Shown here piece by piece: positions 29,928-57,896 of a stretch of 64,000 nt of DNA. Made by a program: the position numbers and the translations under genes. Under the pieces are notes generated by a model, which made no database searches, was not told where the DNA came from, and worked only from the letters and a program-made list of their open reading frames with translations. Every line of letters starts with the position of its first letter. Within the stretch, counting starts at the first letter, position 1. This DNA comes from Ephemerocybe angulata (lineage: Eukaryota > Basidiomycota > Agaricomycetes > Agaricales > Psathyrellaceae), in NCBI GenBank assembly GCA_013368325.1, contig JAACJK010000073.1, forward strand, positions 79,432 through 143,431, given 5' to 3'.

Positions 29928-29949
29928 GGCGCCCAGGTCAATCGACGCA

Positions 29950-33760: not shown

Positions 33761-33779
33761 ATAATATTACGCCTATCAC

Positions 33780-35060
33780 GCAAGAGCTACACTTTTGGGA
33801 ATTAGATGGACTACACGACACACACGCGAAAGCTTCAGGGCGATTTATTGACACTCACTGGCAGAGACGCGAAAGCTGACAGAATACGGGTTCTTGACAG
33901 ACTCGCGAGAGCTAGAGACGATGGTGGGATAGTCGCGAGAGCTAGAGGAGATGGGGTGCACGGGAGGGCTACCATGGAGGAGAGACAGAGTACTCTGCGG
34001 GAAACACGCGAGAGTTTGCAGATGGACACCTTGCCTACGCAGACGCAAGAGCTGAAGAGGCTGGACGGACGCGAGAGCTGAGTCGGAGATTGAGTGCGAG
34101 AGCTGAGGAGACTGGGCACCTTGCCTATCCAGACACGAGAGCTGATGAGGTTGGGAGACGCAGGGTGAAGGAGACTCGAGAGCTGACACGGAGCTGGGGG
34201 AAGATTAGGGAGACTCGAGAGCTGACGCGGAGCCGGGGAGCAACGGAGGGGGCTCTCGACACAATCGCGAGAGCTAGAGACGATGGTGGGACAGTCGCGA
34301 GAGCTAGAGGAGATGGGGTACACGGGAGGGCTACCATGGAGGAGAGACAGAGTACTCTGCGCGGGATATGCAAAGCTAGCGAAGTGCGGAGGGTCGAAGA
34401 CTCGGAGGACGGTTATAACCTGAGCTTACCGCGGGAGCTAACGTGGAGACGGAGAGGACAGAGGGTGGAGGACGAAGTGACGGAGGGAGGAGGGGGTGGG
34501 AGGGAGGAGGGAGTGACGGAGGGAGGAGGGAGTGACGGAGGGAGGGCGGAGTGACGGAGGGAGGAGGGAGTGACGGAGGGAGGGCGGAGTGACGGAGGGA
34601 GGACGGAGAGACGGAGAGGACGGAGGACGGAGGACGGAGTGACGGAGGGAGGAGGGAGGTGGGAGAGACGCGAGAGTTGACGCGGAGGAGGAAGGACGGA
34701 GGGAGGAGGGAGGTGGGAGAGACGCGAGAGTTGACGCGGAGGAGGAAGGACGGAGGGAGGAGGGAGGAGTGACGGAGGGAGTTGACGCGGAGGAGGAAGG
34801 ACGGAGAGATGGAGGGAGGAGGGAGGTGGGAGAGACGCGAGAGTTGACGCGGAGGAGGAAGGACGGAGAGACGGAGAGGATGGAGGGCGGAGGACGGAGT
34901 GACGGAGGGAGGACGGAGTGACGGAGGGACGGAGGGCAGAGGACGGAGTGACGGAGTGACTGAGGGAGGACGGAGGGGTTGTGAAGGATGGAGCAGAGAC
35001 ATGAGAGTTGTTGCGGAGGGAGATGGAGACAATTGATCTGATTTGATTCATGAGGTGTAA
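33780..35060 (+). repeat. Left subterminal repeat array of the giant element
   Basis: Irregular tandem sequence built on GCGAGAGCT(A/G), ACGCGGAGG and GACGGAGGGAGGA. One unit of about 98 bp (33903-33999) recurs with few changes at 34265-34362. A shorter unit (GAGACGCGAGAGTTGACGCG...GGAAGGACGGAG) recurs about 34675, 34720 and 34835. Frames of up to 260 codons run through it because the repeat lacks stops, but they are Ser/Pro or Gly/Glu repeats without coding character. Confidence 0.85.
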
Positions 35061-35068
35061 AGGAAAGC

Positions 35069-35817
35069 CTATTTAGATACATATGTAGGAACATGGAAAC
35101 CATTCGGACCGTATATTGCCTCGTCGCCGGGTGTTCTCCCAATGATCTGGAGAGTGTGCAGGGCATCGTCCCACAGTTCCAAAGCCTGCCATAAATCCTC
35201 CGTCTCGATGCACCGCTTCTTGTAATAATCCAAGCCACCTTGGAGATGCTTCACCCACTCACTAAAAATGTGTAAGTCATAAATAGGAGACACCAGTCAA
35301 AACAATCGGCTGTAGCTTACCCGTCGGAGTAGATCCCTGGAACACGGCCTTTGGTGACCACATAGAAAATGGAGCTGGTGGGAATAAACGGTGGTACAAT
35401 CGCCGGGCTCGTGCCTTCAAGCAGCTTGAACTCCCCCGACCGCCGCCAGCCCACGGGGAGCATGCCGTACAGTTCTCGTGGCCTATGGATCCTCCGCCGC
35501 TCAGCTATCTCCTCCCTGATATCCTCCATGTGTCCTTCTACACCCAGTTCATCATCGTTGACACGATTGCTGACCCGCTCGATGTCCAATCGGGTTTCAA
35601 ACATCTGATCCAGAAGGTTTTCGTTTTGGCTACGGAGCACGATGGCATGATTGTGGACCTGGTTGACCATGGTGCCGAGGTACTGAATCTTGTTGTTGAG
35701 GCGGGCTATGGTAGTGTTGACGGCGGCTAGCGAAACATCGGGTACTGGACTGCCAGACATGGAGTCGTCAGAGATAGCGGGGATTGCGGTGGGAGGAGGT
35801 TGAATGAGGTGAGACAT
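35069..35817 (-). CDS. RNase-H1-N/viroplasmin-like domain protein, copy 1
   Basis: Two exons on the minus strand (35817-35321 and 35261-35069) join to 229 residues. Residues about 30-110 look helical and coiled-coil-like (NNKIQYLGTMVNQVHNH...). The C-terminal half has SSIFYVVTKGRVPGIYSDGE, then WVKHLQGGLDYYKKRCIETE. This matches the pattern of the RNase H1 N-terminal hybrid-binding fold (xFYVVxxGRxPGIYxxW...G...F). In RNase H1 that fold binds RNA/DNA hybrids; no RNase H catalytic domain is present here. A paralogue is encoded divergently at 36571. Its role in the element is unknown; nucleic-acid binding is inference. Confidence 0.72.
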
Positions 35818-36570
35818 GTGAAGAGAACGGAGTGGAGAAAGGCTGATGGATGTTCTACTTAAATTAATTTGGCACAGAGACGCTGAGTGAGTGGGCTCTC
35901 GTGAGCCATATCATATACGGCATTTGATGATAGATGTAATCTCCGGCGCGTCATCAGGGAGGTGTCATTGATGGTGTTGACAGAGCGGAGTGATGGATGG
36001 AGGACGGAGGGAGGATGGAGGGAGGACGGAGGAAGAAGTGACGGAGGAAGGATGGAGGGGTTGTACGGGAGACACACAAGAGTTGACACAGAGGGACGGG
36101 TCACGGATGGGGGACGGAGGTCAGAGTGACGGATGGAGGTTGGAAGTCGGAGTGACGGATGGAGGTCGGAGGTCGGAGTGATGGATGGAGGATGGAGGGG
36201 TTGTGCGGGAGACATGCAAGAGTTGATGCGGAGGGAAGATGGAGGACGGAGGGAGGAGTGACGCAGGATGGAGTCAGGAGACACTCGAGAGTTGAGGCGG
36301 GAGGACAGAGAGACGGAGAATGGAGAGACAGAAGGCGGGCGGAGGACAGGGTCGTGTAGGTGGGTGTCTACATGGTACACACGAGAGCTGAAGAGGATGG
36401 ACGGATCGACTGAGTGTAGAAAAATGTAGGGCGGACGGAGGACGTCGGTCCCTGGCTTAACTGTCACACTGTATTAAATATACAATAAATATCTCTTCCC
36501 GAGAGTATTGGACTATTTAAAGAGAACCAATAGCTCGCTCTATATGTGAACGACCCTCCCTGGACATACT
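35818..36570. repeat. Shared intergenic region with GGAGG-type repeats
   Basis: Lies between two divergent paralogues. Positions 35975-36380 are a looser version of the left array (GGAGGACGGAGGGAGGATGG, GACACACAAGAGTTGACAC, GACACTCGAGAGTTGAGGCG). The rest probably contains both promoters: AAATATACAATAAATA near 36475 for the plus-strand gene, TTAAATTAATTT near 35858 for the minus-strand gene. Confidence 0.65.
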
Positions 36571-37315
36571 ATGAACACCCCTGGTAGCAACACCTCTAAT
36601 CCTGTCATCTCTCCTGGCCCTCCAATCTCTGCGATGCCTGGACCAGCTCAAGGTTAGTCTTCTGAAAGTATAGTGCAGGCCATCCTTCTAATACAACCTC
36701 AAGGGCTCCTGCAGATAACTTGTACCAAGCACGGAGGTTTGCAGGACCCTGGACCCCCAGAGGAGGACGCCGAGGAGGACGCCGAGGCAAAGAGGTTTGC
36801 CGAGCTCAAGGCTGATGTCCTGAGAATGTCCAAGAAGGTCGAGGACCTTGCCCAGCTCGCCGATGAAGCTTGTATTGCCTCTGCGAAGATCACCGATACC
36901 GACAGGAATATGGTTGGATTCGCCCAGAAGGTCATCGATACACTGGAGAACCTGCGCAAGGACCTCGCTTTGCCGTTCGTCGAGGCTGAAGTCCCCCGAT
37001 TTGATGAATCAAGCAGTGTCTTCTATGTCCTCACAAAGGGGAGGGCTCCGGGAATATATTCCGACGAGTTGAGTCCTTTAAATCTTTTCTCTCAGTCAGG
37101 CGGATTTTAACGACACAAAACTTAGGGCGTGGGTTCAGCTTCTCGTCGAAGGCCTCGACGATAGCCAGAGGAAGGTCACCACCGTTGAGACACTCGCCGG
37201 GGCGTTGTCCATTTGGGCCGGAGAAGTCAAGGATCTCGCGTTCACTGGTCGGGTTCCTGGAGATGAAGCTACCTATGGTCCCATCGCTTTCCATATCCCC
37301 CCCAGTGCTCTTTAG
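36571..37315 (+). CDS. RNase-H1-N/viroplasmin-like domain protein, copy 2
   Basis: Likely exons: 36571-36652 (MNTPGSNTSNPVISPGPP... start), a second from about 36748 (DPGPPEEDAEEDAEAKRFAE...), and a last one from about 37127 to the stop at 37313-37315. The middle is a charged helical segment (LKADVLRMSKKVEDLAQLAD). It is followed by SSSVFYVLTKGRAPGIYSDE, an intron, and WVQLLVEGLDDSQRKVTTVE, then RVPGDEATYGPIAFHIPP. The same ending (GDEAIYGPNGFHVP) is found in copy 1, and the intron sits at the same place, so these are true paralogues. About 200 residues. Only the putative hybrid-binding domain is recognisable. Confidence 0.68.
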
Positions 37316-37500
37316 TTTCCCTTGTAATATTATCAGTGACCACTTTGTATGTCAATCGAAAGATCTGATTGGTATGATGGCCATGCGGAGCAGAAAGACA
37401 TGCCTTGGATGGGATTACAGACCCGGCGATCTGGCCAATGGAACCACAAAAAGCTTCCGTGTTTAAATGAGACGGGACCTTGAGTCAGAGAGCACACAAC

Positions 37501-38846
37501 ATGGCCACTCTGGAATCAGAACCATCCGTCGGGCTTCAACTCTGTGCCACTGTGGGCAGATTCATGCAAGACATCTTTCGCTACAAGCTCGACGCTCGCA
37601 ACCACTACGATTTACCTATCCCTGCTTTGCTTGACCGGGAGTTGGTGGAGGATTGCTACCTCGCCGTCGACACCGTGTTTGAGGCCGCTAAAGGTCGTAA
37701 CGAATGTGAGTCAAAGTAACCATCAGAAATGACGAAATATTACTTACCACTTCTTCCCAGATTCGACAAGTTGGACTCTGGCTGAATACACAGCAGGAGC
37801 GAAAAAGCCTAACGACGGGACGGGCGATGGAGAGTTCCCCAAAGCAACATTGAACCGATGTCAGGAGCGGCCTACCCTGACGGACACTCCTTGCCACGTT
37901 AGCGACTCGGACGGAAGGGTTCTTGCCTGGTATTTTCCGGGGGCGATATCAAGCCGGCGTCAGGTAAGTTAGAAAGTTGTAATTTAAAAGATAAACTAAC
38001 AATGAATGTGAAAAGGCGCAGGTGGAGAAGGCCATTGTGGACCTTGCTCATGCGATGGAGAAGCCACTCCCGATGGGTCAAGATGGGAAAACATCCTGGA
38101 GGACAAATTCTTTTTTTTTTCGGAATCCGGAGGAGTGTGCAGTGCGGCCTGGGTGCGTATGCTTCAGCCCCTGCTGGTACAGTCAGGCACATCCGGTATG
38201 TGTACGATGCCCAATTGTTTATTTCAGTAGGACTGACGCACCTAAGCCCCCGAACCACGAACCTGGACCCTCCCAGACGCTTGCCGTCGATAAAGACAAT
38301 GAGCAGTTTATCCGCTCGTTACAAGAGTATAATGCTCTTGTTGGCGGAATGCTCGCCGTCATCCATCCCGACCTCTATGACGTCGCCCTTGCTACTTGGA
38401 AGACCATACACCACTGCCCGGCAGGATCCACGAGACCGGATCGCGTCCAGGAGCTCCTTGGTATATGGGCATCTCCCTTCACCGCCATTTCCTTAATTGT
38501 CAACCGCGAGACGCCCATTCATAAGGATCGCCTGGGAGGCCAGAACTATCTCGATGCCGTTGCGACGTTTGGGAATTATGTGAATGGGAGGTTCGAAATT
38601 CCTGCCCTTGGGATGAGGTTCCGGTACAACCCAGGGTGTGTTATCTTCCTCAACTCGTATAACTTCGCGCATGGTGCCTCCCGCGTTGAGGGTGAGCGGT
38701 ATTGCATCGCCTCCTTCTTCCGCCCAGATATGGTCAAGAACGGCTCGTTATACCACCAAGGGGCGGAATCACTGCCGGCCATCCAAGATTATCGTAGGTT
38801 CTACGTTGAAGAGTACAGGGGCAGGGAGTCGACGGGAAAGATGTAG
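37501..38846 (+). CDS. Tet/JBP-like 2-oxoglutarate/Fe(II) dioxygenase
   Basis: Three exons: 37501 to about 37705, about 37760-37960, and 38017-38846, giving roughly 410 residues. The C-terminal third shows the double-stranded beta-helix signature: NRETPIHKDRLGGQNY with the iron-binding His-x-Asp, GRFEIPALGMRFRYNPG, VIFLNSYNFAHGAS with the distal His, and GERYCIASFFRPD with an Arg suited to bind 2-oxoglutarate. Upstream, PGCVCFSPCWYSQAHP fits the conserved strand of fungal Tet/JBP proteins. Such enzymes oxidise 5-methylcytosine or thymine in DNA and frequently accompany KDZ transposases in basidiomycetes. All active-site residues look present. A run of ten T at 38111-38120 is in frame (Phe-Phe-Phe) but could slip. 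Its 3' end faces that of the minus-strand gene at 38903. Confidence 0.82.
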
Positions 38847-38902
38847 ACAGACGGAATGGTGTATTTAGCCTGACGAATCAATTAGCGGAGCATACCAAGT
38901 GT

Positions 38903-39719
38903 TTACATTAATGGAGAAAAATACGTCCGCATGAGACTGTCCTGGAGCGTTTTAGCCTCCTCCAGGACATCTCTATGTCGGTCAAATGCACCGATGCTAA
39001 CCTCCATTGCCTCCATGTGCCTCCCAAGTAAAACTTCACCAAGTGCGACGACATTAGCCTTCCTCCTAACCCGTTCCGACGCTGCTCCAGTTATCCTGAC
39101 CCGATAGGCCTCCTGCCAGAGCCCAATAACAAGTTGGGGAACAATAGCTTTGGCGGTTCCAAGGGACCTCCGCGTATCGCCAGACCACAACCACCAGCAA
39201 TATTTCTTCGATATTTCGTGATCCCAGGGAGGGAGGGCTTCGGAGGCTGGATTGTTGTCGGCTTCGAGTTTCTTGTAGTCGCTTGGCGCCATGAAAACCC
39301 ACCTGGCATCTGGCTGGAGCTCCAGGCCGGCCCGGAGCCAGGGGTTGGGGTCAATCTTTCCATCGGTATAGAGAACGGACAGGGCATGAATGGAAGTTGC
39401 TACATGCTGGTTATCGGGGTCAGTTCTCCGATCTCAAAGATAAAAGTGTTCTGTTACATACCAGCTCCGCATTGAACCAGTCAAGCATGTGTGATGAGTC
39501 TTCTGAGTGCACAACCACTGCTCTCACCCCTGACATGGCACCCCGAAGCCTCGCAGCCATCATCGTGTTGAGCAAGCTCCAGTCTCCGGAGGATTGGCAT
39601 GCCCAATCTGCATCGAGTAAAGACCTGGTTGCTCCGTTGAAATCGTTCAGAGACATTGGGGCGGTACAGGTACGATACATGGAATAACAATTAAATACGG
39701 TGTGTGTGCCTGATGTCAA
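38903..39719 (-). CDS. Unrecognised protein encoded in the KDZ element (gene P2)
   Basis: Two exons on the minus strand join in frame (start at 39719 or at Met 39656; splice from ...DWFNAEL to HVATSIHAL near 39410-39465; stop at 38903). About 250 residues, mixed alpha/beta composition, Trp-rich middle (WWLWSGDTRR...GLWQEAYRVRI) and helical C-terminus. No motif recognised. It is in line with gene P1 and the transposase, all on the minus strand and closely spaced (51 and 24 bp), so the three may be expressed in a coordinated way. Confidence 0.6.
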
Positions 39720-39770
39720 ATGGGGCCAATGACATATAAAGCCAAATAGAGGTTTCGAATTCTAACTAAA

Positions 39771-40636
39771 CTAAGAATCGCTGGTAATCCTAAACGTTGC
39801 AACTGCCGGCGCGTCAAGATTGAGGACTGGTGGTACAAGATCCTCGTTGTTGAGTGATCCGACAAGGCTCTCGCACTGCTGAATTCCGGTCCACACAACC
39901 GAAAGTGCATTGAGTGTGGTCTTCTGCTCCTCGTCAAGGTAAGCCTCCGTGGAGCGAAAATTTGCAGAGAAGTCGCGGAGCTCGTTGAGTGACATCAGCT
40001 CAATATTTGCAGTCGTGGTTTTTAACGCGGAATGGGGTGAGGGGTGATGGCGGGGGAACATCTTTTTCTTACTCTCCAAGTTATCGCCCACGTTCCGAAA
40101 GTCAATGTCCAACACCTCCTCCAACGCTCGCTTGTCATTCCACCAGTCTTCTGCGTATTTTCCGATCCGAGGGTCATGGAGGGAGCTGGTAGCTACGACT
40201 GTGGCCACTGAGTCCTTCTGCAAGCCGCGGAGTGTATGAGGTTCGCTGAGGGCGAGCAGAGTAAGGAGCCTGTAGAGCTCCGGAATGGAGATCTGACTGG
40301 GGTAGCGGAGGGTGACGACTCCGATAACGGCGTGTGCGTACATCTAGAAATGAATGTTAGCCCCGCCTCTGCATCTCACAATCCTGAACCCACAATTTCC
40401 TGCCACATATTCTTTCTGAAGAACATGCGTTCCAGCCCCGATGTACTATCGTAGATTGCTATGAGGCGATCACACATAGTGCGGAGCCTGCTTGATGTGT
40501 AATTGGCGGAAAGCTGGGAGTCATCGAGGTTTAAGCCATACAGGAAAGACAAGCTGGCTTGGGAGACAGAATGGGAAGGCATCTGCAGAGAAGTGGGTGG
40601 CGAAGGTAAGATAATCTCTGTAACGGCTTGAGACAT
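39771..40636 (-). CDS. Unrecognised protein encoded in the KDZ element (gene P1)
   Basis: Two exons: 40636 to about 40395 (MSQAVTEIILPSPPTSLQMP..., ending MWQEI) and 40343-39771 (MYAHAVIGVVTLRYPSQISI...). They join in frame after a GTGGGT donor. About 270 residues, mostly helical, no cysteine cluster and no known catalytic motif. It starts 24 bp after the transposase stop on the same strand. Function unknown; co-inheritance with the transposase suggests a mobility or regulatory role, which is inference. Confidence 0.62.
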
Positions 40637-40660
40637 CTATATATAGCTTACATGACTAGA

Positions 40661-43600
40661 TCATCCCGTGTCCGAACTCTCGTTGACACCGATGGCCGAC
40701 TCCTCGTACCCCGTGGAATCACTGTCACTACCGGTATCAAAAGAAGACTCTAAATATATCTCCAGTGACCTTCTTGCTTCGTTAAATTTGGCGAGAGCAT
40801 GTCGCCGAAGCCGACTCCACATTGCGGAACGGCGTGAGGACCAAGCTTTCTGGGCCGCAGTCTGATTGGGGAGCTCCGCCCACTCGGACGATTGCTCCGC
40901 TTGGTACGAGAAGTAGTTTAGCACCCACTGCATTTCCTCCGCAATCAATGTATGCTCCTCAACCCACCGCGCGTGCCGTGCGCGTGCCTTGAACCAATTA
41001 ACTCGATGAACTAAGTTTCAGTGAGTAAATGATTGCCTGAGTGAGTGAATTAATCTTGGGGGGGGACTCACGTTCATTCAAGTACGCGTCGTTGCTCAGA
41101 TCACTGGAAAGTCTTTGTGACCAGATCCAAGAAGGTGGGCTGTTCCGATGGCCCCGCTCACGGTGATCGTATATGTGGGCTATAGGTTTAATGTCGGCTG
41201 GGAGTATTGGCTTGAAATCCTGGAGGATTTGCTTGGATGCCCCAAGTCTGGTCAAAGCCCAAAGTGTTTGTCGATAAAGCGAGCGGAGGTAGTTTATAGT
41301 TCGGTTGGAGGCTGCGACACCGGAGTACCCACGGAGACGATCCTTCTTCCCGGAAGCCAGATTGATGTTGGCACGGAAAAGGAATGTCTTATTACCCACT
41401 TCTAGGTGGATGCGTTCGAGGCAGTCGGAGGCCTGTGCGATGCGGAGCTTTACTTCCTTCTTCACTGCCCTTTGCCACACAGGAGGAAGATCTAGACATG
41501 CTGAAGGTAACGCAATTTGGATGAACTCTGGGAGTCCGTCCATGTCCAGGAGAGGATTGGAGGTGTCGCAGGTATGGTCACAGTCCTCCGCATCACAAAT
41601 GCAGTGAGGCACAGGCGGAGGAGCAAGCTCAAGCTCAGAAACATCCAGGAGTGGAAAAAGAGATTCAGCACCCTTATAAAACTCCTGGATGCGCATCGCT
41701 AGCCGATCTCGTTTTGTGGCTATATCAATTCTTTGGGTGTCAGACGGAGCCTTTCCGCTCCGCCGAACCGTTAGAATCGTCTGGAGTCTGTGCTGCAATT
41801 TAAAACAGGGAAATGTTGATCCGACGGAGATACTCACTGCTGTTCCTGAATGTCTAAGCCCAAGGATAGCCATTTAGTTACACCCAGAGCCACATCATCC
41901 GCTGTGTCTTCATTTTCCATGAGATCCGCCTGGACCCGTTTTCGTGTCGGTTCTTCAAGAACAGAGGATATAAGTGCACAAGGTTAGGAAGATAACTGGA
42001 TGGCGTACGTTTGAGCTTCTCCGTGACATTGAAGACATCCATCGCCGCCACATTTTTCTTTCGGTTATCTAGTGCATTGTCCATGGACAACGTCCAAGTG
42101 GAGATCTGGGAAGGAGACGCAGTGGAGGAGAGCGCCTTGTAGTCTCCGTACGCCTTGTCCAGCTCTTTCCGCGAGGAGAGCAGATTCTTGCTCAGTGCTG
42201 GGACTGGGGGTGGAAACGAGTGTCAGCGTTTGAAGTCCGTAACGGGCAAGAGGGGAGAATAGTTGACACACTTAAGCCTAGCATTTTCTTCCAGTTGCTA
42301 TCGAGCATATGGGCGTCAAGCACTTCCATGCGGTGTGGAAGCGTCATTACACTAGATGTCCTCCCGACATCATTCAGCGTTGACCAGAGAGACTCCAGGA
42401 TCTCTCCGCTCGTCATTCCCGCCCCGGGAATGAATGAAGGGGAGTATCGAGCCATGCACCTCTCCTTATGGCCATGTACGTGCCATGTTCCAATTCCCCA
42501 AATAACATTGTCCAGGTCTTCGGCATCTAGCAAGCGATCATTTGCACTCATCCTCCGTTTGGCATTCGTGCTATATTGGCATCCGATGTCATAGAGCAAA
42601 AGGATAGCCGGAGCGTCAAGGGTAGGGCCATAGCGGAGCCCCTGTGTAACTCCATAGTCAATATTGAGCTGCCTGTTCATGGATTATTAGGTTAATAATG
42701 ATTAATGAGTGAATTGTTATGGCTCCGCACCTCTCGCCCTTTTGAAAGTCTACCACTGACGTTGGCACAAATGCTCCGTGTCTACTGCAAGCCAGAGCGC
42801 CAATTCCACTGACATCACACCCCTTATGTGGCTTTGAACGATCCGCGATCGCTCGATGGTCGTAGCATTTGGATCTCTAAAAGCAGAGTGAGATGTATTA
42901 GCTTGGTATTAGCAGCAGCTGTATGTAAGGAAACGTGTCTCCTTACCTCCTTTTCCTCCGTCGTTTCAAGGACATGTTCAGAATATGGAATAGGAGCGGT
43001 GACGTAGCCCTCCCCCGCCTTCAAGCCTATATCCTTTGTCCCGCCTTTTTGCATACGATGAATGCACTTAAAATTTCCGTCGATAACAAACCCCCGCATG
43101 TACAACCACCTCCGCAGGTCATCAATCCAGGTCCGGGGAAGGTTGATACCAGGCTGGGGGCATGCCGCACAAAAGAATGCAAGTTCTCCGGGACCAGGAA
43201 AGTCACTCCGGTTTGCGTATCCGAAGGCTGCCAGTTCCTTAAGATGTCGCCATTGGCGGCCCACACGGAGTAACTCTCGATATCGATCCTGAAAAGCAAT
43301 AGTTCAATTTGAATGGAGTCACGGAGGAGCAAATAATAGAAACATACAGGAACGGAACTAGGGAACGTCTCGTTGGTGAGACGTCGCAACTTCCCGAAGA
43401 AATTATATGTTGAGGTATGGCATTCCAGAGTCTCCGTCAGATAATAGTCAAGGAGTTGGCATGTGAATACAGATCGAGGCTCGTCCTCCGTCGATGGATA
43501 AAGCCCCGACCCGAGTAGCTGGAATGGAAACGGAGCTGCTCCCTCGCAGTTACACTTGGCCACTGGGAGGTGGTGGATGCCGTTTGTGTGAACGACAAGG

Positions 43601-44309
43601 AGTACGGGACACCCATGAATTTTGCGACCTGGAGGGCTGGCTCCGTATGTGACATCGTCGTCGGAGGGCTTGGTCGGGCCCGTATCACCCTTTCTGTAGC
43701 TCGATTTGGGACAGGGTTCACCATAATGGCCCAGGTGGACGACAACTCCTACACTCCACAGCCAAGCTGGCTCATAGTGCTCCCCCGTCCAGCGTTGGAT
43801 CCTATGCAGCTGGTGCTCCGCATGTTCTGATTTGCAGCACTGCGCACAGAAGAAGGTGCGCCCTATGCAGTCGTCGCACCGGTATATCCCTTCCCGTCTT
43901 CCACAGATTAAGCAATCCCCGTTCTTTGGTGGGGCCTCTCGCTCGAGCATGACCATGAGGTACTCCCGATAATTGAGCATCCATCTCCGCATGTAGTCCG
44001 GTTGGGTCTGGTATGCTTGTTATTAGTCGGGGACATGATGTACGCTGAACCACGCACCTTGGTAACCCCCATGTTTGATATATCGATGGTGAGAGACTCC
44101 AAAGGTCCGTCATCATCGCCCTCCTCAGACGACGAGGGATCAGGGGAGGTGTGACGGGACACCCTCGAACGTTTGTACGCAGGGGTAAAGGATCGCTTTC
44201 TTCGCTGAGAGGGCTGAATGGAAAGCTTCCGTCCCCGGGAGCTATGATTCACAGTGAAGGTAGACCCTCCTGTGAGTGGGCTCTGAATCTTCCGCTTTCG
44301 GGGTCGCAT
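40661..44309 (-). CDS. KDZ-family transposase with CxC-type zinc-cluster N-terminus
   Basis: Nine exons; the first four are 44309-44058, 44007-43348, 43288-42947 and 42876-42731, exon 5 starts at 42672 and the stop is at 40661. All checked junctions keep frame, giving roughly 1,050 residues. After a basic N-terminus comes a Cys/His cluster (GDCLICGRREGIYRCDDCIG, then FFCAQCCKSEHAEH), typical of KDZ-associated CxC domains. Then follows the core: GIGALACSRHG...VVDFQKGER, APAILLLYDIGCQY (first Asp), IWGIGTWHVHGHKERC, and MTSGEILESLWSTLN (Glu). ENEDTADDVALGVTKWL and the Trp/Glu-rich C-terminal helices are also family features. No stop or frameshift is visible, so the gene may be active. It would act in the nucleus on the element's own ends. 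Confidence 0.9.
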
Positions 44310-44536: not shown

Positions 44537-47500
44537 AATGACCAAGACATCCAACACGGACGTTAGTACAAGCGAGGAGGAGCTAGTCTCTCGCTCCGGT
44601 GGCAGCGTATCCAGCGGTGAGAACAATGACAATAGCGAAGCCAGTAGCGAGGGTGAGGGGAGTGGCGATGCTGAAAGCGGGGAAGGGGCCAATGATACTG
44701 ATCAGAGCGTGGAGGAGGAGGAGGAGGGAGAGGGAGAGGAGCACCGGGTTGAGCATGAGGAGGAGGACGGAGACGTCCAAGCTGAGAATGGGGAGTTCAT
44801 GACCCTCTCTCCGGAGGATCAAACGATCCTCCATGAACACCTAGCTATCTATCGGGTGTCCGCTAAGGCGAAGCGACCCTCCGTGGCACAGAATTGCGCC
44901 AAGCTGATTACCTCCCGACGGAGAGAAGCGAACCAGGCTCTCAGTAAGAGGGAGAGCAAAGCCTTACCTCATGTATGTACTTGTTGTACGCGGTTGTGAG
45001 TCAGACAATACTGATCTTGATTACAAACCTAGGTACTCAAAGATTGGTTTGACGCCCAGACTCCACGGACAACAGTGAAGGGTGCAGTTGGGAAGGTGTG
45101 GAATGTGAGAGGAGTCTTGCAAGTTGAGCTTGCGGAGGAGATCAAGGAGGTGCGGGATAAGATGACGAAGAAGTGGGAGCGATCGGCGGAAGGCAGGAAA
45201 GCGACGAAAAGCGAGAGAGCTAATAAGCAGATTGGGTTCTATGGTAATGCAACGACCGAGATACTCGAAGCGCTACCAGAGGAGGAGCGCCGGCGATATG
45301 AGAAGATGGCACGGGAGTGGACTCTGGAGGGGCCCTCGATGGAGGAGCAACAGAGGTGAGCGCGTTCTGCATCAAAAATACTACATACTGACGATGCAAA
45401 CTCGGAGATCGTCGAAAAACTTTATGAAGGATGCCGATGCGTTTGCCATTCGCTGTTATAGCCGAATGAATGTTCGGTTATTCATGTTCGCATCCTACTT
45501 GGACGAAAGAGGTACGTCACTACCGTCTACAAAGTCAGCGAAATGGGAAATCTGAGTTCTCGCTATCTGGATCCAGGTGACCTCGTTAGCATGCCAATGG
45601 ATTTCACACAGGTAGTGGGGGAAACGTCCTTCACTGCAAGATACAAAGAATTGATCGAGACATCCGAATTGACCGCTGCGTGGGATAAATGGAGCAAAAA
45701 GGAACTTACCTCTTCCCATCACCAAACGACTCGTGCTACGGGGGAGCATATCCGCCCAGCATCTAAAGCTCTCCTTGTCTTACAAAAGAATCTCTATTCA
45801 GAGCCTATTCTACCTGATCCACGTGAAGTCCCACTGGGGATCAGGCCCAAGGACCATCTCACACGCCTCTTCCGAACGTTCATGGTTATGTCCTATGGTG
45901 CGTAAAGTTATGGTTTAGTGTCTTAATCTACTCTTAACCTTTCCACCCATCTTCCAGCGGTTGCAATGGGGACGGCAGATGACGGCACACGTGCAGTCGT
46001 TCCATGGTCGAAGCTCACTGCGGACCCAAAGAGCTTCATAGCGGAGGAGCACCTCCCATCGAAGTACCACGAACACATGAAACTCGATCCATCGACATGG
46101 CGGTTGACAACTCTCCGTTCGCTCTTGACATTCTGGTGGGACCGTCAAGCTGACTTCAGTCGACGGAGGGTTGTTGATAAACCCGCATTCGAGTTCCATT
46201 CCTATTGGGATCCGACTTTGAAGAAGTGTGTCCCAAGAGTTCCCCGGGTGCAGTACATTGATCCCGAGCCATCCGGGGAGGAAGGAGGGCAGGAGTCGCC
46301 TCGACCACGCAAGCAACAGCCGACGAAGAGTAAAATCCCTCCAAGAGGCAACAGGCCTCGCACACGATCAACCTCGAGAAGACCCGCGTCCCAAGACTCT
46401 TCCATTGCGTCCAGAACACGATCCAGCTCAAGAGCATCCGAAACATTGAACACCAGGTCACCATCGAACGGGAAAGGTTCAAGTTCAAAGTCAAAAGGGC
46501 CGGAGGCGGGGGGAGCAGCAGGAGGTAAGTCGTCCAAGTCCAACGCGGGAAAGGCAAATGGGTCGAAGGCAGGAGGGTCCAAGGCGGAGGGCTCCAAGTC
46601 CAAGGCGGCGAAGGCGGATGGGTCGAAGGCAGGAGGGTCGAAGGCGGAGGGCTCCAAGTCCAAGGAAGTGAAGGCAGGAGGGTCGAAGGCGCAAGGCTCC
46701 AAGTCCAAGGCGGAGGGCTCCAAGTCAAAGGCGGGGAAGGAGGGAGGGTCGAAGGCGGAGGGCTCCAAGTCAAAGGTGGGGAAGGAGGGAGGGTCGAAGG
46801 CGGAGGGCTCCAAGTCTAAGGCGGGGAAGGCGGATGGGTCGAAGGCAGGAGGGTCGAAGGCGGAGGGCTCCAAGTCCAAGACGGCAAAGGCGGATGGGTC
46901 CAAATCAAAGCTGGGGAAGGGGGGGTTGAAGGCGGAAGGCTCGAAGGTGAAAGTGGGAAAGGCGAAGGCACCTAAGGAGGAGGAGTCGAAGTCGAAATCA
47001 TCACGCACAAAGGGAGGTAAACCTGAAGCGTCTGGGGATAGAGGAAGATCCCGCGCACAGGACCGTTCTCCGTCGAGATCTTGCTCACCCCAGCGAGGAA
47101 GATCACGCTCAATTCTTCGAGGTCCGAACACAGACAGACCGCGGAGGAGGGCCCAGTCTGTCACTTGGGCACCCTCAGACTCGCATGAATCCGGCTCCAG
47201 AGGACGGGGACGATCACCATCAAGGCGGGGACGGTCACCATCAGGCTCAAGAGGATCGCGTCAGCCGTCATCCGCTCCCAGTGACGAAGACGATGGTAAT
47301 AGGAGTGGGGATGGGAGTCGGGATTCAAGCGTGAAGGGGAAGCAAAGGGCTACTGCAGAAGACGAAGCTAGATGGGCAGAGGAGGAAGAGTTGGAAGCGT
47401 TGAGAATGCAGGACGCCGATACCGACCTGGACCATGACATGGAGGAGGAGACGCAAGTCGCAATCCCCACCCCAACACACAATATCTCCCTCCGTCTGCC

Positions 47501-47696
47501 ACCGCTGAGTCCTTCCCGTCGCTATCAACCGGCCCCTCCCCACGTTCCTACCAGAAATAGTCCATCCAAGCCCCGGAATCCCGCACCATCCATCTCATCC
47601 CAGAGAAGCCCCAACAAGCCTGTTTCAAGTGTGTTCCCGCCACACCCGGGCCTTGAGAGGGGGAGGCAGTCAAAGTCCCCCCGGAAGCGCCGTTGA
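44537..47696 (+). CDS. Large acidic-to-basic protein with Lys/Ser/Gly repeats
   Basis: Five exons join in frame: 44537-44972, 45033-45355, from 45408, from about 45535, and about 45959-47696; roughly 1,000 residues. The N-terminus is very acidic (Ser/Glu runs). The middle (residues about 110-400) is a folded, helical region with WFDAQTPRTTVKGAVGKVWN, KKWERSAEGRKATKSERANK and LDPGDLVSMPMDF, seen in other agaricomycete proteins of unknown role. The last 450 residues are low-complexity: first a GGSKAEGSKSKA repeat (46550-46960), then RGRSPSRRGRSPSGSRG-like SR repeats. Such basic tails commonly bind nucleic acid. No enzyme motif seen. Transcribed divergently from the transposase. A chromatin or scaffold role is only a guess. 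Confidence 0.75.
46545..46960 (+). repeat. Coding minisatellite (GGSKAEGSKSKA repeats)
   Basis: About ten imperfect units of the type GGGTCGAAGGCGGAGGGCTC followed by CAAGTCCAAGGCG keep the reading frame. Length probably varies between alleles. Confidence 0.85.
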
Positions 47697-48142
47697 GTCC
47701 TGTTCTGACTGCTTGAGCACTTGAGGGCCATTAGTACATTTTATAGAAACCATGTAATTTCAAACCGCTATGCATGATCTTTGATTCAGAAGGTTAAAGA
47801 GATGGAGAACGCTAAAGACGGGAGGAAGAGGGAGCACGGACGTTCTTCGTTGATTCGAGAGACCATTGCCATGTGAACAAACAAACCTGGCCGAACTTTG
47901 GTTAGCAGCATTCCGGAAATATCGGATGCCGTGATTGACGGAGCGCACGCTGCAGCTGCATAGAGGAGCTCCCATTTATGAAGCAAAGGCAAATAGTCGA
48001 ATTGAGAATGGACAGCGGGGCAATGATATGTTACAGGAGGTAGCGTTAGACGTAGTAGAGAGAATACAGAGGATCCTAACACGATGTAGTAGATACAAAC
48101 CAGCAATGTACGAAAAAGAAGTTCGTGAAAGGAGTAGAGGTA
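47697..48142. other. Convergent intergenic region
   Basis: Separates the 3' ends of two large cargo genes. No gene or repeat noticed; it should hold both transcript ends. Confidence 0.5.
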
Positions 48143-51100
48143 TTAAGAGGAGTCACTGGACGAGGCGGTGGAAGAAGAATGGACGCTGGTGTCTCCGAGC
48201 ATCGTCCGATCTCCGGAAATGGGGTGCTGCTGGATGTGACGTCCCGATCCTGAAGATGTGCTGGGGTAACCACCACTGTACGAGCCACCCCCGTAAGTCG
48301 ATCCCACACCGCCCGCCGAAGCAGAGGAAGGATTGATATAGTCACTCCCGTATTGGTTAAAGCCACCCGTCGGCATGAGAGAAGTCGAGGAGACGTCGGC
48401 GTTCATGGCATTCCTGGATGTGAGGTTCGTCGACGGAGACATCTGGTCTGGAATTGGGTTCATGGAACCAGGGGGAATGTGGAAGAGGTCGATGTCGTTG
48501 AGGGGATGATTACCGGGAGACCCAGGATACTGAGGATTCATGGTAGGGTTCTGCAAGATCCCACAGGTCATGAACGCTTCCGATAGCGACTGGGTTTGGT
48601 TCTGAATATGACCCAGAGAATTCGTCACAAAGTTATTGAGAACCGACGAGATGGCCGAAAGGCGCTGGTTGATGGTGATGCGGAATTCGAGCTGGGCAGT
48701 GGAGACGTCTTCGATCTGTGATAGGAGCTTGTCCATACGGGACGAGGTACTCTTTACACCCTCCGCAATGTCCTCGATAATCGCGAGGCGAGCGTCCATC
48801 TTGTCGATGGAGGTTATGATGAAACCGGTTGTGTCGCCGTGGGATCTCTCGTCGCGGTCATCGCGAAGGGCCTGCAAGTCTCGTTGGATTGGAGGGAGTG
48901 CCTGGAGTAGGCCTTCAGAATAGTCCTGCCGGAGGGCGAGACCGGCCTGGATTGGTACAAGCTGGCGAGCGATTTCTGCCGAAACTTGTTCACCGTTTAC
49001 CGCCTCATCCCGCAGGGCGTCGATATTCCTCCCTAAATCAAGAATATGGCCAACGATGACCTGTTGGGCTTCTGGTGTTCGGTGAGCTGGTGCTTGGTGG
49101 ATAAGGGCGTGGATTTTGCTGTTCGTCTCCCGCAACCCAGAATCGAGGTGAGCCGTCTTATTCGCGAGTTGAGCCACTGCGGTATATGGCTGCTCGTGAG
49201 TAAGCTCAAACTCCTTTCCACGCGATACGAGTATGGCGGGTTCCTTCCCTATCAAGACCTCTGACCCAACCTGGGGGAACTTCTTCGTCATGTCAGGCGT
49301 GTAGATGGCGGACATAGTTGATGGAAGATGGAAGATACGTACATCATCGAGGGAAGGATCAGCATCGTCGTTACCCTCTAGTACCCTCCGCCGCTTCGAC
49401 CGAGTGCGAGGCCCAGCATGTTGGCTCTCTTCTGGCATGCGTCCGCCTGTCCCTCCCATTGTAGTATCCATACTGTCCACGAGCATCATATTGTCTCTCT
49501 CCCCCTCCCGAACCATATCCATCGCCCCTGTACCAGTTTTCTTTGTGTCCATCTGCGAATGGCCTTTTGCATCCCCCTTCACATGAACTGAACCGCTCTG
49601 AGACGACTCCTCTGCTCCGCCCTCCGCTCCGCCCTGACCGCCATCTTCCTCGCCTGATACCTCCGCTCCCCCCTCCGCTCTGCCCACGTCTCCATCTTCC
49701 TCGCCTGATACCTCCGCCCCTCCGCTCTGCCCACCACGTCTCCATCTTCCTCGCCTGATACCTCCGCTCCGCCCTCGGATCCCTCCACCACTCCACCCTC
49801 GAAGTCAGGATCAGCGGGATGTCGACAGCCTTTGCGCCTCATCCGACAAAACTCACAGGCCCAGGCGGAGATGGCGGAGTCCACCGGTGGAGAGAGACAC
49901 AGAGGGTTCGCCAGTTTTTGGCAGGTGATGCAGCGGTGCTTTCCAATCAGAAGATAGTTCTTTCCTTTGAGTTCGCCCAACGCATTCCTTGCATTGAGCT
50001 TGGCCGCGCGCAGGCCTCCCGACTCCGAGGTCGAAGGTGCAGTGGGGCGCGGAGGAGGAGGAGGTGGGCGTGTGGGGTCTTGGGATATCGACCGACGCCG
50101 CGAGGAGGCGCGTGTCCGTGCATTGAGCTTGGGTGCCCGATTGCCCCGTGGCTCTGATGTCGAAGGTACAGTGGGGCGCGGAGGAGGAGGCGCGTGTGAG
50201 GAGTCTTGGGATATCGACCGACGCCGCGAGGAGGCGCGCGTCCGTGCATTGAGCTTGGGCGCCCGATCGCCCCCCGGCGCTGAGGTAGAAGGTCCAGTGG
50301 GGCGCGGAGGAGGAGGCGCGTGTGAGGAGTCCCGGGACATCGACCGACGCCGCGAGGAGGCGCGTGTTGCTGGGCGAGAAGATGCTCGCCTTGCGACATC
50401 GGGTCTCCCTCGGGGGCGTGTTTGGGGGAGGGGAGGCTCATCTTCGTCAACGTCCATCGCGGTGGGAGATTCTGGAGATGGTTCCGTCGGGGGCTTCTTT
50501 CGGTATACAGGCTTCGATTGGGCAGTGGTGGACGTCCCCGGCTTCCGAGTTGCTCTTGGGGTAGGCTCGTCGATAATCTCCACGTCAGAGTCTGTGATTG
50601 TCTCAGCACTCTTCGGTTTCATCTTCTGTTTTGCTACACCCTTCCCTTTCGCCTTGGTACCCCCCTTCTTTGCTCCGGAGTTCGCGGTTCCCATCACTAA
50701 CACCATCGCCGCACCTTTCACCGCCGCCGGCTTCGTGCCCATATCACTTTGGACCTTCAAATGCCCGTGTTCTGACCTTTCGAGATTCACGGAGGTTCCA
50801 GTGGAGGACGGAGCATTGGACGGAGGGGGTCCGGTCGCCAGAGACTGATGACTAGTTGTGGTGATGGGAGTATCGGATCGAGAATGGGAGTGGGGTGTTA
50901 TCTCAAGCTGCTGCCTCCCCACCTTCCGTTTCTTGCTTTGTTGTAACAGAGGATTGGCTATCTCCTTCCGGGGTAGGGTCACCTTGTTCGAGCCTGAGTC
51001 GTTGTCGGTGTCTGCAGCTTTGCGTTTGCTCGTAGTAGACTGACTGTCAGCTCGTTTCGCCGCGATGGGTGGGCCACTCTTGGTCTATATGGAAGTATCA

Positions 51101-51522
51101 GGCCTGGACTCCCTGCTCTGGCGAAGCCAGTGGTGATAACGCACGATTGGCACAGTATCCCTTGCAGTCTTCACCCTGTAGTCGCAGAATGGACTGTCCG
51201 TCTTGACATCTATGAAAAACACCCTTTGGCTTCCAGATTGAGCGTGACTCCTGAGCGCCTTGCCTGCGGCGGTGATCAAAGGTCCAAGTTCACGAGAAAC
51301 GCCAACTTTGTGTTCGGCTGCATACTCGAATATGGTGGTCTATGTTGAGCTGTGAGATATCGACCTCCGCAGATTATAACTCGCAATACGCACTAAGATC
51401 CCAACCACGTAGATCTGCTCTTCAACGGACTTCCTGTAACTAGCCTTGTAGATCTCCTCCAAGAAGATACCAGCGAGACCTTGGAGCTCGATCATGCTGG
51501 TAACGTAGTACTGCTTGACCAT
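48143..51522 (-). CDS. Long Pro/Arg-rich protein with Cys cluster and coiled coil
   Basis: Model on the minus strand. Exon 1 starts at 51522 (MVKQYYVTSMIELQGLAGIF...). An intron with GTGCGT...CATAG leads to TTIFEYAAEHKVGVSREL. Then a 91-bp intron from CDYR to TKSGPPIAAKRADS keeps phase. A Ser/Arg/Pro region has three repeats of APKLNARTRASSRRRSIS. Next is a Cys cluster, HRCITCQKLANPLC...WACEFCRMRRKGC, resembling fungal zinc-cluster domains. From about 49830 to 49600 lies a minisatellite (GGAGCGGAGGTATCAGGCGA) in which the reading frame changes. The remaining 500 residues (from 49687) include long helices and a Gly/Ser-rich tail ending at 48143. The frame change may be an unseen intron between repeat units or a true frameshift. 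Likely a nuclear DNA-binding protein, by inference. Confidence 0.62.
49600..49835 (-). repeat. Minisatellite causing frame change in the Cys-cluster gene
   Basis: On the minus strand, units of about 35-60 bp contain GGCGGAGCGGAGGTATCAGG then CGAGGAAGATGG. Units differ in length by numbers not divisible by three, so upstream and downstream coding parts are in different frames. Confidence 0.75.
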
Positions 51523-51803
51523 TTTGCAGAAAGCTATAAGGCTGGAAGACGTTTATTGGCGAGGAGGAAGTGAAGGGAATCACTGGAAGAGATCATCGGA
51601 ACGTTTTACTGGTTTATGACTGGTGCTGGTAATGCGTCCGGGAAGAAGGTCTGCTGAGATGGTGAAAACGGACTTGGCGGTCCGAGTCCGGCCCCCCTTG
51701 ATCCACTGTTGGAAGCTGTTGAGATAACAACCGAACGCTCATCTCTCCCTTTCCTCCCTCTTTCGTTCTCTCTTTCCATCAGTTATTTCCTCCTGAAGAG
51801 ATA
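51523..51803. promoter_or_regulatory. Divergent promoter region of two cargo genes
   Basis: 281 bp between outward-facing start codons at 51522 and 51804. A pyrimidine-rich stretch (CTCCCTTTCCTCCCTCTTTC, 51743-51762) precedes the plus-strand start, as is common in basidiomycete promoters. No TATA box was identified. Confidence 0.5.
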
Positions 51804-53526
51804 ATGGATGCCAAAATGTGGGACTCAGTCAATCTATCCTCCGGTTCAGGTACTGCATTACAGTATACATGCCATTCGTTTGACGCACCGACTAATCACC
51901 TTTGCAGAAGATGACATGCCCATGGAGGACTCCGACAACGAGTCGCTTTCTGTGAACGAGTCCCTTTCTGTGAACGAGTCGCTTCCTGTGCCCGTCAACA
52001 TATACCCCTCTGCGCCCAAGAGCACCGAGACCAGTATGGCTGAGGTAAACTCTCGGCTCAAGATGGTGGCAGACTCAGGAGCATTCGATATTGTGTCGGA
52101 CGACGGGTCCGACACCCTCCCGACCTGCACGAGCAAGAACAATACGGAGAGTACAAAGGCGCAGGCGCATGGCGATGGGTGGAATGACGACGCTGGTATG
52201 TGTCCATCTGTCAATACTATTTACCTCCATTCATCACCATCTCTGGCCTGCTTGTGGCGCAGAGCTCGACTTTACTGTGCCTCAGCTTGGGAAGGTCCGC
52301 CCCTCAAAGGAGACACTCCATAGTAGCCTCGGCCTCCCCCCTACTGTTCCCCAGTCGTGGATAGATGCTTTTCATCCCGACTCCGCCTCTGCGATGGTGA
52401 CAACGGCACCTCAGTCACCCGGACCGGGGACCTCCTTAGGTACCCAAGACCAGACAGTCCACCCACCTAAGAAGGGGGTCCCTGGTGGTTCTGTCCAAGG
52501 CTGGATTTTTTCTACTGGGCTGGTTTTGGTCCATTGGTGTGTCCGTTTGTCCAATTGATATGACCATTTGTCCAGGTGTCTGGGGTCTTTGTTAATGGAT
52601 TTTTTTCCAGGGTTGGAATTTTGTCCAATCAGCTGGACTTTTTCCATTTGATCTAGTATGGACTTGACCAGCATTGGACTTTTCCAATCATGATTGTGGA
52701 CCAGTCCACCAACCTGTTTTGCATAGATTGGACAAGTCCATTATAGTCTGGACTAGTCCACTGCTGTCATTTGATGAATTGGACTAGTCCATTATTGTAT
52801 GGTCTAGTCCACCGCTGTTATTTGATAAATTGGTCTAGTCCACTGCTGATGGCATCAGTCTAATGACATTGATGGTACCTGTACCTATGATGTCATGATC
52901 TACATTGATGGACCCTGTGCCTGTGTCATTATGACGTCATTGATGGTACCTGTGCCTGATTTGCATGACAGCATTGATGGTACCTGTACCTGTGATGTCT
53001 TGTCCAATCTATGCAAAAGAGGTTAGTGGACTAGTCCACAATCATGATTGGAAAAGTCCAATGCTGGTCAAGTCCATACTAGATCAAATGGAAAAAGTCC
53101 AGCTGATTGGACAAAATTCCAACCCTGGAAAAAAATCCATTAACAAAGACCCCAGACACCTGGACAAACAGTCATATCAATTGGACAAACGGACACACCA
53201 ATGGACCAAAACCAGCCCAGTGGAAAAAATCCAGCCTTGGACAGAACCACCAGGGACCCCCTTCTTAGGTGGGTGGACTGTCTGGTCTTGGGTACCTAAG
53301 GAGGTCCCCGGTCCGGGTGACTGAGGTGACAACGGAGATCCTCAATCTCCACATTCGGCATCTCCGGTGGACGTATCGATGCCTTCTGGCTCATTACGCG
53401 CACTGTGACAAGGTCCGAACTATGCTCCACACCCAAGCGGCCTGCCTTAGTCGTGCGATTGCCACCAAAATGTCCGCAGAAAATCTCGCTTCTTCTCTTC
53501 CGTCCTCATCTGCGGGCCCTATGTAA
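51804..53526 (+). pseudogene. Acidic Ser-rich protein gene split by a foldback element
   Basis: Exon 1 starts at 51804 (MDAKMWDSVNLSSGS). Exon 2 from about 51908 (DDMPMEDSDNESLSVNESLS...) ends with GDGWNDDA. Exon 3 from about 52262 reads ELDFTVPQLGKVRPSKETLH... up to SAMVTT at 52406. There the 922-bp foldback element begins. Past its far end the frame continues as EILNLHIRHLRWTYRCLLAH... to a stop at 53526. The two halves meet in the same phase if the element and one target copy are ignored, so the gene was intact before insertion. As it stands the frame runs into the element and stops at 52556. No domain recognised; the acidic Ser/Glu repeats suggest a disordered N-terminus. Confidence 0.72.
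52407..53328. mobile_element. Foldback/MITE element with 330-bp terminal inverted repeats
   Basis: Left arm 52407-52736 and right arm 52999-53328 are reverse complements with only a handful of mismatches. Ends read CACCTCAGTCACCCGG and its complement. ACAACGG flanks both sides (52400-52406 and 53329-53335), a 7-bp target duplication; the identity extends to 11 bp if GGTG is counted. The 262-bp centre holds short repeats of GGACTAGTCCA and ATTGATGGTACCTGT. No transposase is encoded, so it must have been mobilised in trans. It is nested inside the giant KDZ element. Confidence 0.93.
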
Positions 53527-53639
53527 CTTTCTTCCTTCTTTCCCGCTTATTTCGTCTCGATCATCCCCAACTTCAACCTCCCACATGTATTCGTCATTTG
53601 TGTTACATCGTTACACTGTACAGTGCTTGCCATGGTTCC

Positions 53640-55570
53640 CTCTTATAAATTTGTATTTTGCATCCTCCGACCCTCCGAAACATTCTCCGACCCTCCGCAT
53701 TTTGCCAGCTCCCGCGCTAAACAACCTCATGTCCTCCGACCCTCTGCATTTTGTTAAGTCCTGCGGGCGGCCACAACCTCATACGTCCTCTGACGAGCCC
53801 TCTGACCCTCCGCATTTCATTAGGTCCCGCGCTAAATACAAGTCCAACAATCCTCTCATCCTCCAATTCATGAGCTCTCACACGCGTACCACCCTCCCGC
53901 TCCCTTCGTTAGCTCCCGCTTCGGATCAACAGGAAGGCTGCTCCGATGCTGGATCCACAGCTCCATCAGGCTCCGTCCCTCCACTTTTATTGGGTCCCCC
54001 TGCTAGACTAATTAATATACTAATAAGAGTCATCCGTCCCTTCCCTTTGATAGCTCTCGCGTCCACCCAATGCCCATCCAATCCATCCTCCGCCCCCCCG
54101 CCTTCGGTAGCTCTCACGCTTTTGCCTGAACCTCCCCATCTGAACCTCCGCATCTCAGTCTATTGTCCTCCGAACCTCCGCCCCTCGTTAGCTCCCGTGT
54201 GGTAAGTACAGGTTAAATGATCTCCATCTTCCGTTCCATCCTATGTTATTCCTCCCTCCATCCTCCACCCTCTCCATCCATCCTCCGATTCCCCGTCCTC
54301 CGGTTTACTTCCTCCGTCCATCCTCCGTCCTCTGCCTCATCCGTCCTCCGCGATGTGTTAGCTCCCGCGCTAGACACGTCTCGCATAACCCCTCCGTCCC
54401 TCCATGATGTGTTAGCTCTCGCGCTAGACGCCCACCCGCGCTAGACACGTCTCGCATAACCCCTCCGTCCCTCCATGATGTGTTAGCTCCCGCGCTAGAC
54501 ACGCCCAAACTGCCACCGTTTCACATCCTCCGTCCCTCCGCCTCCGTTAGCTCTCGCACTATGGACGCATAGCTTCCTCACAGCTTCCTCCGTTCCCTTT
54601 GCCAGCTCTCATCCTCCGTCCCTCCGCCTCCATTAGCTCTCGCACTAGGGACGCATAGCTTCCTCACAGCTTCCTCCGTTCCCTTGCCAGCTCTCATCCT
54701 CCGTCCCTCCGCCTCCTTAGCTCTCGGCCACTCATCCTCTCCGCCTCCATTAGCTCTCGCACTAGGGACGCATAGCTTCCTCACAGCTTCCTCCGTTCCC
54801 TTTGCCAGCTCTCATCCTCCGTCCCTCCGCCTCCATTAGCTCTCGCACTAGGGACGCATAGCTTCCTCACAGCTTCCTCCGTCCCTTTGCCAGCTCTCAT
54901 CCTCCGTCCCTCCGCCTCCATTAGCTCTCGCACTAGGGACGCATAGCTTCCTCACAGCTTTCCTCCGATCCTCCGCCTCCATTAGCTCTCGCGCTAGAGA
55001 CGTCCTCCGTCCCTCCGCCTTAGTTACCTCTCCTCTGTCCTCCGCTATGTGCTACATAGCTCTCGCGTTAGACACGCACAAATGCCTCCATCTCTCTGCT
55101 ACCTCTCGTGTCCAATCCATCTTCCGTCCCTCCGCCTTCGTTAGCTCTTGCGCTACAGACGCATAGCTTCCTTCGTTAGCTCTTGCGCTACAGACGCATA
55201 GCTTCCTTCGTTAGCTCTCGTTGCTAGAGACGCACAGGTTGCTTTTGCCAGCTCTCGTCCTCCGTCCCTCTACCTTCGTTAGCTCTCGCCCTTTTGTTGT
55301 GTTAGCGCCCACTACCCCACATAACTTCCGCTGTCCCCACCTCATGTCCACGCACAGTCCAGGCCCAGAACTGGCCTTTTCGAACCCTACGCTTGAAAAG
55401 GCAGTTCTGGGCCTGGACTGTGCGCGATCAGATCGGCAACTCCCGCGCTAAACATGCATGTCCTCCGAGATTCCGCATTTCGTTAGCTCCCGCGTAAGCA
55501 CAGGGCGTCTTACACGCGTTCACCAGCAATAGCTTTCCAAGCCCACTCATGAGAATCAATAGCTCTCGCG
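53640..55570 (-). repeat. Right subterminal repeat array of the giant element
   Basis: Built on CCTCCGTCCCTCCG and TTAGCTC(T/C)CGC, the reverse complement of the left array's motifs. From 54520 to 54990 units of 85-115 bp containing GGGACGCATAGCTTCCTCAC recur about five times (54565, 54653, 54767, 54853, 54939). Long stop-poor frames run through it but show only low-complexity sequence. Confidence 0.85.
55351..55424. repeat. Strong 30-bp hairpin near the right end of the giant element
   Basis: CGCACAGTCCAGGCCCAGAA... at 55351-55381 pairs with 55395-55424, with a single extra G in the left arm and a loop of about 13 nt. The rest of the array has no such structure. Confidence 0.85.
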
Positions 55571-55660
55571 TTTTGAGAACCAAGTCATCCCCTTTTTCTG
55601 AGAAAGGCGCGTTTGATAACACTTCCCCGTGTCTCCCCATCCCACCCTCCGCTCCATAGC

Positions 55661-57890: not shown

Positions 57891-57896
57891 TATAAA
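57891..57896 (+). promoter_or_regulatory. TATA box of ALDH copy D
   Basis: TATAAA 43 bp before the altered start codon, in the conserved position. Confidence 0.65.

Follow-up and report, generated by a model that had tools for sequence, protein, structure and literature searches.

How much of the roughly 22-kb block around a KDZ transposase gene and a TET/JBP dioxygenase gene in the mushroom Ephemerocybe angulata belongs to one mobile element, and what might the further genes between its ends do there? The block lies in a 64,000-nucleotide stretch of contig JAACJK010000073.1 (positions 79,432 to 143,431), which is referred to here as the window. An earlier reading of the letters alone (the sequence-only reading) had proposed a KDZ mobile unit of about 22 kb at 33770-55660. 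Such a unit it is: a well-bounded element of known kind, a TET+ Kyakuja of the KDZ superfamily, the ends of which we could refine to 33713-55732. Beyond this, we consider it probable that the element has a multi-gene body in which TET relieves silencing, assisted by the products of two adjacent genes, U1 and U2.

The element measures 22,020 bp, has CA..TG termini, and is enclosed by a perfect 7-bp target-site duplication (CAGCGAT at 33706-33712 and 55733-55739). Its left end is given by a second copy on contig C189, in which homology breaks off at the same terminal base next to a different flank, while the right end was placed at 55732 because the CAGCGAT repeat adjoins the TG terminus at that point. 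With the left end held fixed, 6 of 5,000 shuffles of the right region matched as well; with both ends free, 1 match was observed against a shuffled mean of 0.034. The inverted repeat arrays that had been described around the genes are also present, with a G-rich left subterminal array (33790-36430, + strand) holding four copies of GCGAGAGCTA and the gene G1, and a C-rich right array (53660-55580, - strand), inverted relative to the left one, holding 11 copies of TAGCTCTCGC, the reverse complement; the rest of the 64 kb contains neither. Among 25 of the 39 inverted-repeat pairs, none joined the two ends as terminal inverted repeats would. The earlier proposal to find an empty site lacking the whole block was followed up without success, as no empty allele was found in the genome assembly, and pieces of the flanks matched elsewhere in the window with no match spanning the joint. 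The right flank (55900-58500) is 67-79% similar to several places in 14800-30600, in the left part of the window, so the insertion sits among related host sequences arranged in tandem. Neither contig C75 nor the start of contig C98 was accepted as an independent insertion, since both overlap the window locus across its right end; they are overlapping or allelic copies of it (96.9-99.9% identical over long matches).

The KDZ superfamily was reportedly introduced by Iyer et al. in 2014. The KDZ transposase gene of the window (40661-44249, - strand; several exons, boundaries approximate) matches PF18758 (E value, 2.5e-27) and carries a CxC2 cysteine cluster (E, 3.3e-22); its acidic residues stand in plausible settings, the catalytic ones having been assigned by eye. 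Inside the same ends, the TET/JBP dioxygenase gene (37501-38846, + strand; several exons) encodes a Tet_JBP domain (PF12851; E, 3.4e-23) in 38022-38846. Its best solved relative is CcTet (7vpn, 8jkk; E about 4e-33), and in the alignment to CcTet the HxD, His, and Arg residues are conserved across the active site. The transposase and the complete dioxygenase motifs of the sequence-only reading both held up. A loose HxD/His/Arg pattern within one open frame was present in 22 of the 25 TET loci described below.

A genome search for TET gave 30 matches, of which 25 exceed the Pfam cutoff, and one for KDZ gave at least 170 matches, from 150 scored of 175 candidates. For the pairing of the two, 40 listed KDZ matches were used, mostly on TET-bearing contigs, and among these a convergent KDZ gene was located no more than 6 kb downstream of TET at 18 or more of the 25 loci (17 pairs at 3.9 to 4.6 kb and one at 1.3 kb). 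Seven TET matches had no such partner within 6 kb among the KDZ matches listed (C189, C179, C209, C117:995377, C98, C112, and C18), and KDZ genes beyond those listed might provide one for some of them. On C189, TET is unpaired because the contig ends there. On C179 (locus L053), KDZ lies 10.2 kb from TET, and a retroelement-integrase-like frame, recognized by eye downstream of TET, may explain the wider distance. C209 has TET and U1 with no KDZ within 6 kb among the matches listed. The other four (C117:995377, C98:185320, C112:485538, and C18:735567) lack both U1 and, among the matches listed, a convergent KDZ partner at 6 kb or less; they may be solitary or domesticated TET genes or parts of other elements.

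Across the genome, the recurrent set consists of TET followed on the opposite strand by U1, U2, and KDZ, joined in some copies by G6 (on the TET strand), G7 (on the KDZ strand), and RNase-H1-N-like genes. The expectation that the genes would recur as a block was thus borne out in part: several are found together in diverged copies, the one on C117 being collinear in order and strand over TET-U1-U2-KDZ-G6-G7 and the one on C189 sharing the left end with G1, G2, TET, U1, and U2 in a different flank, while others belong to some copies only. The sibling elements on C22, C117, C125, and C232 make up a near-identical family.

The most regular companion of TET is U1 (38903-39656, - strand; exons 39462-39656 and 38903-39406), a gene of unknown family with a spliced model of 232 amino acids, equal in length to the annotated protein P0006; its second exon is 98% identical to an annotated E. 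angulata protein. Position was used to choose U1-like frames at 19 loci, which gave 18 distinct sequences; profiles built from these were searched against all six frames of the 25 TET loci and of 13 control loci, of which 8 were KDZ-only and 5 weak TET-like loci. Each profile omitted the tested locus and relatives more than 60% identical to it, near relatives being retained for L047, L051, and L053. U1 was the best match, on the opposite strand just downstream of TET, in 21 of 25 loci (E, 7e-46 to 0.043 for 10,000 sequences), and it was present in all 18 TET-KDZ pairs. At the seven remaining TET loci, it was found in three (C189, C209, and C179) and absent from four (one chance-level match; E, 7.2), and no profile match was obtained in any of the 13 control loci. 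In a leave-out test, the window U1 scored above all 1,000 shuffles (E, 1.6e-5 for 1,000 sequences; best shuffle, 0.011). Since the members had been picked by position beforehand, these results show sequence likeness and are no blind discovery. As a query by itself, the window U1 matched C189 and C117 only, the latter at 23% identity. An alignment search outside (7997 candidates scored) gave one protein, labeled E. angulata, and the U1 profile gave weak matches only among solved structures (best E, 0.14), with helical or designed proteins making up many of these.

Its neighbor U2 (39771-40636, - strand; exons 40394-40636 and 39771-40343; 271 amino acids) is likewise without an assigned family. 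U2 was examined in C189, C117, and six loci chosen by eye, mostly partial; against a profile of seven siblings, the window U2 scored an E value of 1.7e-16 (1,000 sequences), far beyond 1,000 shuffles. As a query, it matched C189, C117, and, weakly, one place elsewhere on C47, and a protein search gave no relatives. A weak profile-profile likeness (hhalign probability, 58.6%; E, 9.5e-5) hints that U1 and U2 could be distantly paralogous.

Selection could be gauged by comparing the window with the C189 copy, in which G1, G2, TET, U1, and U2 are free of stops. The ratio of nonsynonymous to synonymous divergence (dN/dS) was 0.18 for G1, 0.12 for the G2 core, 0.14 for the open reading frame with the TET domain, 0.31 for U1, and, over 191 amino acids only, 0.14 for U2; these substitution ratios show purifying selection on all five predicted genes. 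Synonymous divergence was 0.05 for G1 and 0.16 for G2 compared with 0.56 to 0.82 for U1, U2, and TET, which points to a later exchange of the left arm than of the middle of the element. Because U1 accompanies 18 of 18 TET-KDZ pairs, the genes recur, and purifying selection acts on them, much of what had been called cargo is probably the element's own gene set; the label suits U1 and U2 poorly, as they look like regular element parts.

Less regular are the genes of the left arm, which had been read as two RNase-H1-N-like paralogues. G1 (exons 35321-35817 and 35069-35261, - strand) encodes 229 amino acids with a coiled-coil-like N-terminal part, and an annotated E. angulata protein matches 92% of the G1 length at 98%; G2 (36571-37315, + strand) has core exons 36784-37067 and 37126-37315 and an uncertain 5' exon. 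Their paralogy stands (36% identity), but the domain assignment falls short of the Pfam threshold, the scores for the RNase H1 N-terminal (Cauli_VI) domain being 19.4 bits for G1 and 14.5 for G2, both under the cutoff of 21, and a profile search against solved structures giving none for the RNase-H1-N-like protein. Five of five database relatives of G1 gave weak matches to the same domain (best E, 0.0043), and the structure model of P0001 was poor (pLDDT, 42). Those five relatives are all labeled E. angulata; the outside searches for G1, U1, and U2 alike need shared words, so absence from other species is not shown by them. With G1 as the query, the genome gave 21 matches on 10 contigs, nine of them other than the window's own. 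Six of these nine (C189, C120, C215, C219, C47, and C125) have the match less than 20 kb from TET, for which the chance is about 2e-9 if the loci are taken as independent, an assumption that does not hold for copies of one family. On C179 the distance is 27 kb; C197 has no TET match and a KDZ gene at 6 kb, and C11 has no TET match and its closest KDZ, among those listed, about 57 kb off. The RNase-H1-N-like gene takes one of two positions, either 1.2 to 3.1 kb upstream of TET (window, C189, and C120) or 10.4 to 11.6 kb downstream of it (C215, C219, C47, and C125). Further genes standing without a transposase, which the sequence-only reading had named as speaking against a single unit, were thus seen only in part, at C209 and C11 (among the KDZ matches listed), whereas all 18 TET-KDZ pairs carry U1.

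To the right of KDZ, G6 (44538-47696, + strand; exon joins approximate) has an acidic N-terminal part and a Lys/Ser-repeat C-terminal part and is the Lys/Ser-repeat protein that had been noted at this place; homologues lie at the matching place on C117 (49%) and C125 (38%; E, 8e-4). G7 (48143-51522, - strand) encodes a large low-complexity protein with a Cys-rich stretch, comprising two overlapping open reading frames in the window and a single frame of 1,035 amino acids on C75, and has a weak homologue on C117 (33%; E, 7e-6). It had been described as a Cys-cluster/coiled-coil protein: the coiled-coil-like C-terminal part is there, but the cysteine cluster that Pfam recognizes is the N-terminal part of the KDZ gene. 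G8 (51804-53523, + strand) is a broken gene, the pieces of which flank a nested insertion and match neighboring parts of the annotated protein P0002 (right piece, residues 159-175, E of 1e-7; left piece, residues 132-160, weak, E of 0.065). The first 175 residues of P0002 gave no genome match, which by itself is not informative. Two annotated E. angulata proteins, P0002 and P0004, join a G8-like N-terminal part to a G1-like C-terminal part and are either gene models merging neighbors or shortened element derivatives. The insertion that splits G8 (52407-53328; 922 bp) has inverted arms of 330 nucleotides with CACCTC..GAGGTG ends and is flanked by its own 7-bp duplication (ACAACGG, 52400-52406 and 53329-53335), the CA..TG ends and duplication length being those of Kyakuja; a longer version is present on C75.

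How, then, might these parts work together? We propose that the DDE transposase would recognize the inverted subterminal arrays, either directly or via an element-coded protein such as G7, and move the element, and that TET would oxidize 5-methylcytosine (5mC) on it, possibly also N6-methyladenine (6mA) as in CcTET, allowing genes and ends to escape silencing. U1 and U2 would help in this work, as suggested by U1 adjoining TET in every TET-KDZ pair and not at the four lone TET genes. Given the presence of the TET enzyme and published analogy, anti-silencing by TET is likely. A more specific version is a tentative one: U1 and U2 may regularly accompany TET as partners, directing or controlling its activity on the CpG-bearing subterminal arrays, with the RNase-H1-N-like genes, G6, and G7 as exchangeable add-ons. 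If so, the element would amount to a movable kit for epigenetic autonomy, its modules swapped between copies, as the uneven synonymous divergence suggests.

Several observations weigh against this proposal. The observed/expected CpG ratio has a median of 0.92 in the 25 TET loci versus 1.02 in the eight KDZ-only loci (P = 0.0007; loci taken with 1.5 kb on each side). The window U1 bears only a distant likeness to its siblings (E, 1.9e-4), with weak values for C189 (0.02) and C117 (0.043) as well, and the searches with the U1 and U2 families yielded no function. With G8 broken and G7 split, moreover, the window copy may not be fully working. Within the window, the CpG ratio is 0.83 for the element, 0.95 and 1.04 for the arrays, 1.0 for the flanks, and about 0.18 for the strongly CpG-poor nested insertion (TpG+CpA, 1.47). 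Protection by TET had been considered as a reading of the difference between nested insertion and element; it was dropped, since CpG is no scarcer in KDZ-only loci than in TET loci, and CpG content consequently shows no such protection.

The rival that survives best is a TET+ Kyakuja of the ordinary two-gene type, in which the further genes are trapped passengers without a role in the life of the element. The restriction of RNase-H1-N-like genes, G6, and G7 to some copies would suit it, as would the later exchange of the G1/G2 arm, but U1 in 18 of 18 TET-KDZ pairs, the collinear C117 copy, and purifying selection on five genes make it unlikely. We give somewhat less credit to the idea that a modified base, made or recognized by TET and its companions, serves as a signal, for example to mark ends or regulate transposition, with silencing left in place. 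CcTET also acts on 6mA according to passages of PMC12730594, and in Laccaria and Coprinopsis oxidized cytosines are described as lying mostly at silent genes and elements (passages of PMC12730594 and PMC8889193), with oxidized 5mC enriched at transposable elements and TET genes (PMC8889193, in part). The CpG content, which carries no sign of relief from methylation, fits as well; against this, Pfam scans of the element genes recognized no modifying enzyme such as a glycosyltransferase. Finally, a stationary cluster of host genes next to a transposase, never transposed as a block, could appeal to the missing empty allele but is contradicted by CA..TG ends and a 7-bp duplication enclosing the whole block, by the same left end in another flank on C189, and by TET matches on many contigs, and is hardly credible.

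Relief of silencing by TET with help from U1 and U2, if it takes place, would matter beyond this locus, for the questions of how TET enzymes carried by transposons are directed to their targets and why dozens of them persist in some mushrooms. U1 is a concrete, testable candidate for a TET partner, given its presence in 18 of 18 pairs and not at four lone TETs, and would also allow TET+ elements to be recognized in other genomes.

Among known systems, the closest are the TET+ Kyakuja elements of Agaricomycetes, for which the association of TET with KDZ in basidiomycetes, as stated in the sequence-only reading, has been described along with 7-bp duplications and CA..TG ends (Kojima 2025, PMC12730594, in the parts consulted). 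The window element shares with them a KDZ gene with an AG-type-like TET, the 7-bp duplication, the CA..TG ends, and, among the inverted-repeat pairs examined, the lack of terminal inverted repeats. It is set apart from them by its length of 22 kb, by six or more additional genes, and by the inverted arrays near its ends. As those main-text parts, supplements aside, make no mention of genes like U1, U2, and G1, we provisionally regard the recurrent further gene set in TET+ Kyakuja as new. Zisupton elements have an 8-bp target duplication and terminal inverted repeats (same parts of PMC12730594), compared with 7 bp and no terminal repeats seen here. KDZ1 to KDZ3 of Cryptococcus neoformans likewise have a KDZ transposase with an N-terminal Cys cluster but are about 9 to 11 kb long, with terminal inverted repeats of 139 to 241 bp and duplications of 4 to 8 bp, and the passages on these elements in PMC12810828 do not mention TET. 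A CxC2 region also precedes intact KDZ genes in Pleurotus, as it does in the window (PMC7641404, in part). With CcTET of Coprinopsis cinerea (7vpn, 8jkk), the predicted dioxygenase of the window shares the active-site motifs. En/Spm and VANC-type elements of plants encode their own anti-silencing and have subterminal repeats. To these, we draw a works-like analogy only, in element-coded relief from silencing and in subterminal repeats, and claim no homology; VANDAL regulators are also named in the parts of PMC12730594 cited above.

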